Shown: piece after piece, positions 2,605 through 5,970 of the stretch
Layout of the letters: each line of letters begins with the position of its first letter
How positions within the stretch are numbered: position 1 is the stretch's first letter
DNA from: Halovivax ruber XH-70
GTDB taxonomy: Archaea > Halobacteriota > Halobacteria > Halobacteriales > Natrialbaceae
Reading direction: 5' to 3'
DNA length: 64,000 nucleotides
NCBI RefSeq assembly: GCF_000328525.1
Contig: NC_019964.1
Location: 310,001 to 374,000 of the forward strand
Position numbers and translations under genes: made by a program
Notes under the pieces: generated by a model
The model's database searches: none
What the model was told of the DNA's origin: nothing
The model's input: only the letters and a program-made list of their open reading frames with translations

Positions 2605-3666
2605 TCACTCGTCTTCGTCGGGCATCGAGACCAGGTTCTCTCGGCCCAGTTGTAGCTTTTCGATGACTCCTTCGTCCGCCAGCTCCCCGACGACGCGCGA
2701 CGTCTTCGAGGCGGACCAGTCACACTCCTCGGCGATCACCGCCTGTCGAATTCGGCCGCCATTGGCTTCGAGGAGGTCGAGGACGCGCTCTTCGTCCGTC
2801 AGCACCGGCTCGCGCTCCTCGACGTCACGCTCCTCACCAGCTGCGGGTGGTGACTCGCTCCGTTCAGCGGCTTCCTCGGCTGGAACGGGCGTCTCGTCGG
2901 AATCACTCGTGAGACGCCGGTAACTCACGATGCCACCAAGCCCGAGTACGACCACGAGGAGCCCACTGACGGCGATTCGAACGATCGTCCCGGCGATCGC
3001 GCCACCCTCGTCGGTCTGCCCGGTGTTCGCGATCGCCACGGTCGGATTGCCATCGGCGAAGTCCTGTCTGCCGGTCCACGTCACCATCCCACTTTCTCGA
3101 CGATCCGGAGCCGGATCGGTGTGGGCCACCTCGTAACCGTCGGGGGTGACTACCTGCAGCGTATCGCCGTCGGCGATGAAGAATCCACCCTGGAAGACGT
3201 CGCCGACGGTCACCTGACCGTTCTCGCTGGCGGCGAAATTCGTCCACGTGAACTCGTAGGTGACGACTCCCCAGCGCCGGGGTACCTCCTGGATACTCGT
3301 CGACGCGGTGAACGCCGTCGCCTGCATCCGGCGATCGGTCGCGTTTGCCGCGTTCGCGACGACGCCGCGCATCCGTGTGCGATACGGGTCGAGATATTGC
3401 GCTGTATCGTTCCTGAACCGGTCCTGAAACGCGGCGTACTCGGCTACGCGCTGGTCGGTGTCGAGGCGGGTCCGAATCTGGACCGTCCAGTGTGCGGACC
3501 CGTTCTCGGTTACCTCGATCCGCGTGACCGTGTTGTCGGTCTCGGGCTGGGATTGCTGGGCGACCGCAGCACCGGTGACGATCGGTGACAGTAGTCCACC
3601 GGCCAGGAGGCCGATGATGGCGACTGCAACGACCGCCCGTCTACCGGCGTCCGATGAGCCAGCCAT
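2605..3666 (-). CDS. Membrane-anchored protein: extracellular domain, one TM segment, cytoplasmic winged helix (DUF7345/DUF7343-like)
   Basis: A 353-residue protein. Residues about 8-34 form a signal or anchor segment (AVVAVAIIGLLAGGLLSP). An exported domain of about 210 residues follows, with a conserved-looking EVTENGSAHWTVQIRT start. A transmembrane helix (about 245-265, ISGLLVVVLG-type) comes next, then an acidic linker and a C-terminal winged helix (EERVLDLLEANGGRIRQAVIAEECDWSASKTSRVV, written here in pieces). This out-TM-in-wHTH layout occurs in many haloarchaeal genomes and suggests a one-protein membrane sensor that touches DNA or a partner inside. The ligand is unknown. Start chosen at ATG 3666 because a TATA element lies 27-34 bp upstream; the upstream in-frame extension is not protein-like. 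Confidence 0.8.
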   Translation of the reverse strand: MAGSSDAGRRAVVAVAIIGLLAGGLLSPIVTGAAVAQQSQPETDNTVTRIEVTENGSAHWTVQIRTRLDTDQRVAEYAAFQDRFRNDTAQYLDPYRTRMRGVVANAANATDRRMQATAFTASTSIQEVPRRWGVVTYEFTWTNFAASENGQVTVGDVFQGGFFIADGDTLQVVTPDGYEVAHTDPAPDRRESGMVTWTGRQDFADGNPTVAIANTGQTDEGGAIAGTIVRIAVSGLLVVVLGLGGIVSYRRLTSDSDETPVPAEEAAERSESPPAAGEERDVEEREPVLTDEERVLDLLEANGGRIRQAVIAEECDWSASKTSRVVGELADEGVIEKLQLGRENLVSMPDEDE

Positions 3667-3978
3667 TAGATACCCCACATTCCTACAGAAATCGTATAAG
3701 TCGTCTGTTTTCTCGATCCACCGTACGGGCCGAACGACACGGGGACTGTTGGTAGTGGTGTGAACGGGCCGCAACTGTCGGCGACCGAGCCCGTGGCCCG
3801 TTCCCGAATCCGACGATCGGAGGGGTGTGCTGCCTCTGAATGCGGTGTTTTACCGGCTGAAACGCCGGAAATTGGTCACCGCGACGCCGGACCGGAGATC
3901 CGTCGTCTTCGTGGGTCTCACTCGGGAAACCCACGGCGGTATCTGCGCGATCGTGGACCTCTCGGCTGATCTGTCGCG
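3667..3978. other. Non-coding gap of about 310 bp
   Basis: Lies between the membrane winged-helix gene and the stop of the acidic-tail gene. Apart from the TATA element at 3693-3700 nothing recognisable is present: no tRNA, no repeat, no coherent frame on either strand. Confidence 0.5.
3693..3700 (-). promoter_or_regulatory. TATA element for the membrane winged-helix gene
   Basis: Read on the minus strand the site is CTTATACG, 27-34 bp before the ATG at 3666. It would give a leaderless or nearly leaderless transcript, and it supports the chosen start. Confidence 0.55.
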
Positions 3979-4575
3979 TCAGTCGTCGGTCTCCTCCTCG
4001 TCATCGTCGTCCGCTTCTTCGTCGTCATCATCGTCCTCGCTCTCTTCGTCGTCTTCGTCATCTGCGTCGTCGTCCTCGTCCTGCTCATCATCAGCATCGT
4101 CGCCTTCGCTCTCCTCGTCGTCATCGTCCGCTTCTTCGCCGTCTGCGTCATCCTCGTTCTCTTCGTCGTCCTCGTCAGCTGCCACGTCGTCACGCTCGTA
4201 CTCGAATTCCTCTTCGACGAGGTACAGTGAGCCGTCGTCGATCACGTATTCGAGTTCACCCTCGAAGTCACTCCCCTCGATCTCGAGTTCGAGTTCCTCG
4301 TCTTCGTCAGTCTCGAAGGTGACCGTCCCGTTCGCGTCGGTCGTGGCTCCCTCCTCGTCGTCTGCGTGCACGCTGACGTTCTGGAGGGGCTCGCCGGCGT
4401 CGGTGACGACGACGGTGACCGTCCCGTTGTCGTACGTCGCGTGTGCGTCGACGTTCGTCACACCACTCGTGTCGCTGGCCATCGTCTGGGTACTGCCGCC
4501 AGTACCGGTGGCGGCGACGCCACCGATCGCGAGCAGTACCACGAACCCAACCGCGAGCAGTTTTGTGGAATCCAT
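3979..4575 (-). CDS. Secreted protein with a long Asp/Glu-only tail
   Basis: A 198-residue protein starting MDSTKLLAVGFVVLLAIGG, a Sec-type signal segment. A small domain of about 80 residues follows, predicted beta-rich (NVDAHATYDNGTVTVVVTD and GEPLQNVSVHADD), resembling a carboxypeptidase-regulatory or Ig-like fold. The last about 75 residues are almost only D and E with a few A, N, S and G. The tail is coded by GAC/GAT/GAG/GAA runs (3979-4190), which makes the DNA strongly repetitive. Divergent from 4861-5970, which has the same signal/domain/acidic-tail plan. Possible roles are cation binding or charge-based cell-surface function; this is inference. A TATA element at 4602-4608 fixes the start. 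Confidence 0.8.
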   Translation of the reverse strand: MDSTKLLAVGFVVLLAIGGVAATGTGGSTQTMASDTSGVTNVDAHATYDNGTVTVVVTDAGEPLQNVSVHADDEEGATTDANGTVTFETDEDEELELEIEGSDFEGELEYVIDDGSLYLVEEEFEYERDDVAADEDDEENEDDADGEEADDDDEESEGDDADDEQDEDDDADDEDDEESEDDDDDEEADDDDEEETDD

Positions 4576-4601
4576 TGCACTCTCGTCTCGAAACGGGGCG
4601 A

Positions 4602-4608
4602 CAATAAA
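4602..4608 (-). promoter_or_regulatory. TATA element of the leftward acidic-tail gene
   Basis: TTTATTG on the minus strand, 27-33 bp before ATG 4575. Transcript expected to be leaderless. Confidence 0.55.
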
Positions 4609-4667
4609 CCGGTCCGACGTTCGTACCGAGTTGCATCGTCGACACGACGGGATCCGTGCGGAGTCGC

Positions 4668-4697
4668 TGCAAACGTCTGCAACTGTCTCCAACTGCA
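4668..4697. repeat. Phased 10-bp repeat array A (CTGCAANNNN x3)
   Basis: Three consecutive 10-mers: CTGCAAACGT, CTGCAACTGT, CTCCAACTGC. The CAA core recurs exactly every 10 bp, so the sites would lie on one helix face. Located in the intergenic region between the divergent acidic-tail genes, about 93-122 bp before the leftward start codon. Candidate operator for a cooperatively binding regulator. Confidence 0.55.
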
Positions 4698-4778
4698 CCT
4701 CCATGTTCGATGCGAAGCGTCGGCACGCGGTGAGGGATCGGTGATGGTAGGTGCCCGATCGAATGGGCCGTTCGACCT

Positions 4779-4808
4779 GTGCAAGTGAGTGCAACCGTCC
4801 GCAAACGA
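4779..4808. repeat. Phased 10-bp repeat array B (GTGCAANNNN x3)
   Basis: Three consecutive 10-mers: GTGCAAGTGA, GTGCAACCGT, CCGCAAACGA, with GCAA at 4781, 4791 and 4801. The same period and core as array A, with its GCAA cores 111 bp downstream of those in A. It ends 18 bp before the TATA-like element at 4827-4833 of the rightward gene, a normal place for an activator or repressor site. Confidence 0.55.
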
Positions 4809-4826
4809 CGCCGACGGTCTCGTCCG

Positions 4827-4833
4827 TTTAAGG
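4827..4833 (+). promoter_or_regulatory. TATA-like element of the rightward acidic-tail gene
   Basis: TTTAAGG, 28-34 bp before ATG 4861. It supports ATG 4861 over the longer in-frame start at 4789, because the latter would lie upstream of the promoter. Confidence 0.5.
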
Positions 4834-4860
4834 GCTCCCGGGACGTCCTCATCGATACTG

Positions 4861-5970
4861 ATGAACGGAACCGCGCTCGTCTCTGTCGTTTTCGCGACCC
4901 TTCTCGTGGTCGGGATCGCCGTCCCGGCGGTGGCGCTCTCGACCGATGCTGGCGAGCCCTCGTCGAGTTCGCTGGACGGCACGACCGTCGCACCAGCCCA
5001 GTCCGCGCCGAACAGTTCGAGCGTGAACGTCACGACCGGGCCGCAGCTCTCGACGGTCATCGAGGTTTCTGCCGACGACGTACAGTCCGACGTCGAGGAC
5101 ACGGCCTTCGAGATCTCGTTCGAGGACGCGGACGAAGCGACGCGGGCCGACGCGCTCGCCGACCGGGCGGCGGCCCTCCGTGATCGGGCCGAGGCTATCG
5201 ACGAAGACTACGCGGACGCGACCGCCGCCTACGAGGACGGCGACCTCGGAAAGGCTGCGTACACTCAGCGGCTCGCGACCCTGAACGCCCGCGCGTCCAA
5301 CGTCCTCGACAGTCACAGGCAGTTCCGACAGCGGGTCGCGACGGTCTCTCCGTCCGCGCTCAGCGCCGCCGAGGTCGATCGGTCCGCGCTCAACCAGTCG
5401 ATCGAGGCCCTGAACACGGTCACCGGCACCGGCGCCACGGCGCTCCTGGCACAGTTCACCGCCGAGTCGACCGGTGAGATCGAACTCGAAACGGACAACG
5501 GACTCTCGATCGAGGTCGAGAGCGAGGACGGCGAGCGCTCTCGCGAGTTCGAGCGCCCGCGCGACGACAACGACGACCGAACGGTGGCCCAGTCAGCAGC
5601 CCTCGAAACGGCCCGCGACGCACTGTCGCCAGTCGAGGATGGGAACTGGACCCTCACCAGTTCGGAGATCGACGACGGCAGCGCCTACGAGTTCGAGTTC
5701 GAACTCCTGGACGCCGCCACCCTGACTGGTGACGCCGAAATCGCCGTCGACGGGTCGACTGGGGACGTGTTCTCCCTCGAGGAAGAGATCGAACCCCGTG
5801 ACGACGAAGCCGACGATGACGAGGACGCAGACGATGAAGACGACGACGCGGATGACGAGGACGAAAACGACGAGGACGAGAACGACGCAGAGGACGATGA
5901 GGACGACGCAGATGAGGAAGACGACGATGCGGACGATGACGGCGACGCGGACGACGAAGACGACGACTGA
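4861..5970 (+). CDS. Secreted DUF7096-like protein with Asp/Glu tail
   Basis: A 369-residue protein. MNGTALVSVVFATLLVVGIAVPAVA is the signal region. A mainly helical ectodomain follows (about 60-240) with DALADRAAALRDRAEAIDEDY and QSIEALNTVTGTGATALLAQF. Then comes a PepSY-like strand-rich piece (DGNWTLTSSEIDDGSAYEFEF, with GDVFSLEEEI). The last about 55 residues are nearly pure D/E/A/N. This matches what I know as the haloarchaeal DUF7096 family, but the family name is from memory. The start is set by the TATA element; the frame from 4789 to 4860 is upstream of the promoter. It probably sits at the cell surface. The tail and the shared divergent regulatory region tie it to 3979-4575. Confidence 0.8.
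   Translation: MNGTALVSVVFATLLVVGIAVPAVALSTDAGEPSSSSLDGTTVAPAQSAPNSSSVNVTTGPQLSTVIEVSADDVQSDVEDTAFEISFEDADEATRADALADRAAALRDRAEAIDEDYADATAAYEDGDLGKAAYTQRLATLNARASNVLDSHRQFRQRVATVSPSALSAAEVDRSALNQSIEALNTVTGTGATALLAQFTAESTGEIELETDNGLSIEVESEDGERSREFERPRDDNDDRTVAQSAALETARDALSPVEDGNWTLTSSEIDDGSAYEFEFELLDAATLTGDAEIAVDGSTGDVFSLEEEIEPRDDEADDDEDADDEDDDADDEDENDEDENDAEDDEDDADEEDDDADDDGDADDEDDD

Follow-up and report, generated by a model that had tools for sequence, protein, structure and literature searches.

The 64,000-nucleotide stretch of Halovivax ruber XH-70 DNA analysed here, hereafter the window, contains two divergent genes for secreted proteins, LP and SP, whose shared intergenic region carries two arrays of 10-bp units. 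A predicted membrane-anchored regulator, TF, is encoded one gene from the arrays. The features are listed below, with the arrays delimited by sequence inspection and pattern searches and the TATA-like boxes assigned by inspection.

2605-3666, minus strand: TF, predicted membrane-anchored winged-helix regulator, DUF7345 ectodomain-TM-DUF7343 (Pfam, AF2)
3979-4575, minus strand: LP, secreted protein of 198 aa with one carboxypeptidase-regulatory-like domain (Pfam score below cut-off) and an acidic tail
4603-4608, minus strand: TATA-like box TTTATT, 33 nt upstream of the LP ATG
4668-4697, plus strand: array 1, three 10-bp units, TGCAAACGTC, TGCAACTGTC and TCCAACTGCA
4780-4809, plus strand: array 2, three 10-bp units, TGCAAGTGAG, TGCAACCGTC and CGCAAACGAC
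4827-4832, plus strand: TATA-like box TTTAAG, 34 nt upstream of the SP ATG
4861-5970, plus strand: SP, secreted protein of 369 aa with a DUF7096-like helical region, a PepSY-like domain and an acidic tail

Read from the window letters, the cores of array 1 are GCAA at 4669 and 4679 and CCAA at 4689, and those of array 2 are GCAA at 4781, 4791 and 4801. The initial annotation had located the array 2 cores correctly and those of array 1 one base too high; its spacing of 111 bp between the arrays becomes 112 bp from start to start, with the common orientation as it described. Three GCAA units at a step of 10, with at most one mismatch, occur in the 64-kb window at these two arrays only, and across steps of 5-25 the three-GCAA pattern gave a single additional match, at step 21. 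Over both strands of the whole genome (3,223,876 bp) the three-GCAA step-10 pattern matched five times: twice at these arrays and three times within long open reading frames. The 3.22-Mb genome has two copies of the exact motif TGCAA-N5-TGCAA, and the intergenic region of LP and SP holds both; with one mismatch it gave 36 genome matches versus 169 for the pattern read backwards. No lag-10 signal was seen in the remainder of the window outside the arrays. An RNA element was considered and rejected, as a search of positions 3500-5200 against Rfam matched no family and neither array is located downstream of a TATA box of LP or SP.

Both flanking products have hydrophobic signal-like N-termini and Asp/Glu-rich tails, as judged by eye from the translations. 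Among aligned SP family members DUF7096 was matched in 18 of 18 and PepSY in 4 (E ≤ 0.01), and the match of the window SP itself to DUF7096 falls below the family cut-off. Its AF2 model (mean pLDDT 70) shows helices at residues 59-159 and an alpha/beta domain at 244-312. A fold search with SP against PDB returned nothing at E ≤ 0.001. LP is related to the C-terminal domain of longer SP orthologs and sits between TF and SP in the window and at one further locus (L124, genome G267). The window SP is shorter than most of its orthologs, and the C-terminal domain seems to have moved into the separate gene LP with its own array. In a species of the same genus (G001, L079:2465-2671), TF is reduced to its last ~68 residues, 88-90% identical, and joined to a gene remnant similar to the DUF1801 gene located after SP in the window; the regulatory module looks deleted in this sister species.

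Of 392 genomes of the order, 51, a count that includes the genome of the window, have an SP homolog (E ≤ 1e-20). The homologs are spread over 26 of the 95 genera searched, and 17 aligned SP proteins are 41-61% identical to that of the window. We compared 52 upstream regions, namely those of 51 homologs (50 other genomes, one of them with two copies) and of the window. AA pairs at lag 10 numbered 221 versus 40 in dinucleotide shuffles (z 29, a score that overstates independence because the regions are related by descent), and those at lag 20 numbered 141 versus 37. On the same strand TT showed no excess at lag 10 in these regions (15 versus 12 in shuffles). The lag-10 AA signal was individually significant at p < 0.05 in 46 of the 52; the six regions above this value belong to G079, G143, G057, G265, G307 and the second copy in G038. 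A strict run test gave p values of 0.14 and 0.995 for the SP promoters of G265 and G307, the SP start of the latter being misassigned. Conservation of the unit extends beyond AA, with G at 72%, C at 61%, C at 58% and G at 54% in one group. Of ten genomes taken from a separate collection and lying outside the first set, seven carried a phased array at p < 0.02. The initial annotation had named absence of the repeats from orthologous intergenic regions as grounds for dropping its proposal; we found the array in most orthologs, in phase with the TATA box.

The arrays occupy defined positions relative to the core promoters. Start codons of SP orthologs were set by rule, and 49 promoters were analysed after three loci that have no TATA box by this rule (L153, L154 and L173) were excluded and judged by eye only. 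Upstream of the SP TATA box, AA occurs at -24 in 33, at -34 in 38 and at -44 in 33 of the 49, then farther out at -54 in 21 and at -64/-65 in 20/23, with almost no AA between these slots. At least three of the five slots were filled (±1 bp) in 45 of 49 SP promoters versus none of 43 TATA-like sites elsewhere in the window. For the divergent regulator gene, TATA boxes were assigned by rule in 30 regions, other rows being dropped and L124, L174 and the window left out deliberately; here AA peaks lie 21, 31, 41, 50-51, 62, 71, 81 and 91 bp from the TATA box. In the window, the AAs of array 2 are at -44, -34 and -24 relative to the TATA box of SP, which are the slots that orthologs fill most often. 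Those of array 1 start 62, 72 and 82 bp (worked by hand) from the end of the LP TATA box, so that array 1 falls on the grid seen at the divergent regulator promoters of other genomes; this agreement carries modest weight, as the peaks become broader with distance. Each window array therefore fits the grid of its nearest TATA box.

These placements bear on two readings of the repeats. That they are a chance or compositional artefact has a negligible probability and was rejected: the small number of units is its sole opening, and against it are the rarity of the pattern in the genome, the lag-10 AA excess and conservation in orthologs, and the occupancy of TATA-relative slots compared with control sites. 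The initial annotation had also suggested that looping of the DNA could bring the two arrays together. Paired blocks within a single intergenic region do recur, in the window, in G364 and in several others, which speaks for looping; but many orthologs have a single continuous pattern, or two blocks sharing one grid, the 112-bp spacing was not seen as a conserved feature, and each window array keeps to the grid of its own TATA box. We regard bridging as very improbable, and this part of the proposal is not upheld. The arrays are a real, conserved operator: they are kept among orthologs, asymmetric between the strands, placed in register with both TATA boxes and linked to TF.

TF combines DUF7345 (118.7 bits, cut-off 27.5) and DUF7343 (94.3 bits, cut-off 27.6) in one protein, and Pfam detected no receiver domain. 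In its AF2 model the ectodomain and a winged helix at residues 290-346 are largely above pLDDT 90, and between them lies a TM helix (221-250) of moderate confidence. The winged helix aligns with MarR/ArsR-type domains at Z of about 10 and had no PDB sequence match. Fenna-Matthews-Olson proteins, the top Foldseek matches of TF, reached TM 0.19 or less and were not accepted as relatives.

At 46 of 51 homologous SP loci, a TF gene lies upstream of SP on the divergent strand. Two of the five exceptions (G265 and G307) have an unlinked TF with 50% identity; the other three (G057, G079 and G143) have no TF homolog above 30-37% identity, and their arrays comprise at most two units. This linkage, together with the pattern of the five exceptions, makes TF the best candidate for the array binder, a role we infer from sequence and gene neighbourhood. 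No array was found upstream of the unlinked TF genes of G265 and G307, so not every TF gene is under this control itself. A clear lag-10 AA signal was also absent upstream of 24 TF paralogs (TT z 2.2), and the array was accordingly rejected as a general feature upstream of DUF7345-DUF7343 genes. A residue of the recognition helix co-varies with the unit, SAS going with TGCAAACG and SKS with AACGG, with exceptions; this was not taken as proof of binding, as SKS changed only about twice on the tree.

In all 17 SP genomes searched, the SP promoter was the best genome-wide site of a sequence model built from 27 arrays, and in six genomes without SP it found nothing better than E 0.3. As the model was trained on these sites, this informs specificity only, in that few other sites exist. 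One of these few is in G252, where an LP homolog (52% identity) that is not linked to SP has the array at its own promoter; this supports LP as a target of the same regulator. A four-unit GCAA pattern matched in 5 of 146 genomes, and the idea that such arrays are everywhere in haloarchaea was dropped on this count; one of the matches is a simple 5-bp repeat, and among the others only the L038 site recurred in a scan for a TATA box with AA slots.

This TATA and AA-slot scan covered 305 kb of other loci and gave 12 sites where four or all five slots are filled. Most of them (e.g., L050, L013, L017, L080, L061, L056, L010 and L008) precede genes for proteins with a signal-like N-terminus, the genes at most sites are DUF7096-like or adjoin TF paralogs, and several sites use another unit, GAAAACGG. 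Next to or near TF paralogs, at L050, L056, L061, L080, L017 and L090, the promoters of genes whose products have signal-like N-termini contain 10-bp-phased GAAAACGG/TGAACCGG units in step with TATATC/G boxes. Five DUF7096-like promoters (L012, L016, L019, L022 and L025) share a conserved GAACG-type stretch (about TGAACGNTNCGAACGAAGGTCC) just before the TATA-like box, and no TF homolog was found in the surrounding sequence examined. Several DUF7096-family promoters with phased units had no TF homolog within the ~1.5 kb searched on each side, and at many of the DUF7096-like loci none was present in the sequence covered. Homologs of LP at 24 other loci carry the lag-10 AA signal (61 versus 11 in shuffles, z 14.7) and also the TT signal (46 versus 12, z 10.4), and LP homologs elsewhere (L239-L260) have phased TTAA-CCG units upstream of the start. 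The phased geometry seems to be shared by the promoters of a family of secreted proteins.

Recurrence of AA with a period of ~10.2 bp is classically a signal of curvature and of nucleosomes, and the phasing could act through DNA shape, by intrinsic curvature or chromatin-protein wrapping of the promoter, with no dedicated regulator. The LP-homolog promoters elsewhere, with both AA and TT in phase, speak for this reading. The SP promoters, however, carry AA on one strand only, bases flanking AA are conserved, and the exact double unit is confined to this locus genome-wide while the rest of the window lacks a lag-10 signal; we consider an effect of DNA shape improbable.

The same wider survey bears on the identity of the binder. 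The arrays could be a true cooperative operator read not by TF but by a soluble factor of the winged-helix or HTH type whose gene lies elsewhere, with TF being a target or a neighbour by descent. Phased units at DUF7096-like promoters without a nearby TF homolog and at LP-like promoters agree with such a factor, as do G265 and G307, where SP and TF are unlinked and the array is at SP alone. Set against this are the linkage of TF to the divergent strand in all but five loci, and the exceptions themselves, two of which keep TF elsewhere while the three without a TF ortholog have at most two units. We hold this alternative to be unlikely, though a good deal less so than an effect of DNA shape.

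On balance, we favour the arrays as the operator of a small dedicated module, bound by TF protomers arranged head to tail. Each 10-bp unit, about T/C-G-C-A-A-A/C-C-G-t-C, would be read by one TF winged-helix domain, and the protomers would assemble cooperatively, side by side in head-to-tail order, along a single face of the helix. The series would stop about 20 bp upstream of the TATA box, beside the TFB site, which suggests that SP is activated, rather than repressed, through aid to TFB/TBP binding. The divergent promoter, that of TF in most relatives and of LP here, would be controlled from the same stretch, so the arrays would control both SP and LP, probably by activation. The ectodomain of TF may sense the extracellular state, placing the signal outside the cell. 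The initial annotation had read the repeats as an operator whose helical phasing would align several protein subunits, shared by two genes for secreted proteins with acidic tails; as a reading this survives, since the phasing is conserved and in register with TATA boxes, and binding by several protomers is what we infer from it.

A broader generalization is offered tentatively and may well not hold, namely a haloarchaeal operator class in which paralogous membrane-anchored winged-helix proteins bind head to tail. They would occupy a grid of ~10.2 bp extending from one divergent core promoter to the other, and would thereby hold the promoter at the membrane. Every paralog would have its own unit (TGCAAACG, GAAAACGG or TTAATCCG), and the geometry relative to the TATA box would be fixed. 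A direct-repeat array at a fixed TATA position, linked to a membrane-spanning regulator, would make haloarchaeal one-component envelope signalling directly testable, and AA at -24, -34 and -44 from the TATA box provides a sequence rule for finding such promoters.

To our knowledge, few archaeal operators are known in detail. CsmR of Haloferax binds TATCA-N4-TGATA (PMC13286277), and for sptA of Natrinema semi-palindromic elements are described along with a distant one that contains direct repeats (PMC6085418); together with the ArnR boxes of Sulfolobus these are mainly inverted repeats. Judged by titles and the openings of abstracts, literature searches returned no description of the present operator, in keeping with the initial remark that no haloarchaeal operator of this form had been described.

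Among known systems, the nearest are direct-repeat sites bound by winged-helix proteins and the membrane-bound archaeal regulators ArnR/ArnR1. In OmpR/PhoB-type sites, winged-helix domains recognise short direct repeats spaced by about one turn of the helix, and the arrays have this one-turn pitch. The CpxR box, quoted as GTAAA-N4-8-GTAAA (PMC6391269), is likewise a pair of short direct repeats about one turn apart with winged-helix readers. The candidate binder TF differs from CpxR, OmpR and PhoB in being membrane-anchored and without a receiver domain by Pfam, and the sites differ in their three to eight units, which keep step with a pair of archaeal TATA boxes. The Streptomyces protein BldC is a winged-helix protein that forms asymmetric head-to-tail oligomers on direct repeats of variable number (PMC5859096), and RdfS is an oligomeric winged-helix protein with direct-repeat sites (PMC11963761). 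BldC is a soluble, MerR-like protein on 9-bp repeats, whereas the candidate here is a MarR/ArsR-like membrane protein on 10-bp units, whose pitch of 10 to 10.2 bp departs from that of BldC filaments.

CadC/ToxR-type bacterial regulators are membrane-anchored, with an N-terminal winged helix and an external sensor domain. TF shares the membrane anchor and, putatively, the external sensor, but its winged helix is C-terminal and its sensor domain is different. ArnR/ArnR1 of Sulfolobus acidocaldarius are archaeal one-component regulators with an HTH that are bound to the membrane and act immediately upstream of the core promoter (PMC6396743). There the HTH is N-terminal and the boxes are inverted repeats, TCGAC-N5-GTCGA, whereas TF has a C-terminal winged helix and the units of both arrays are direct repeats with a different sequence.
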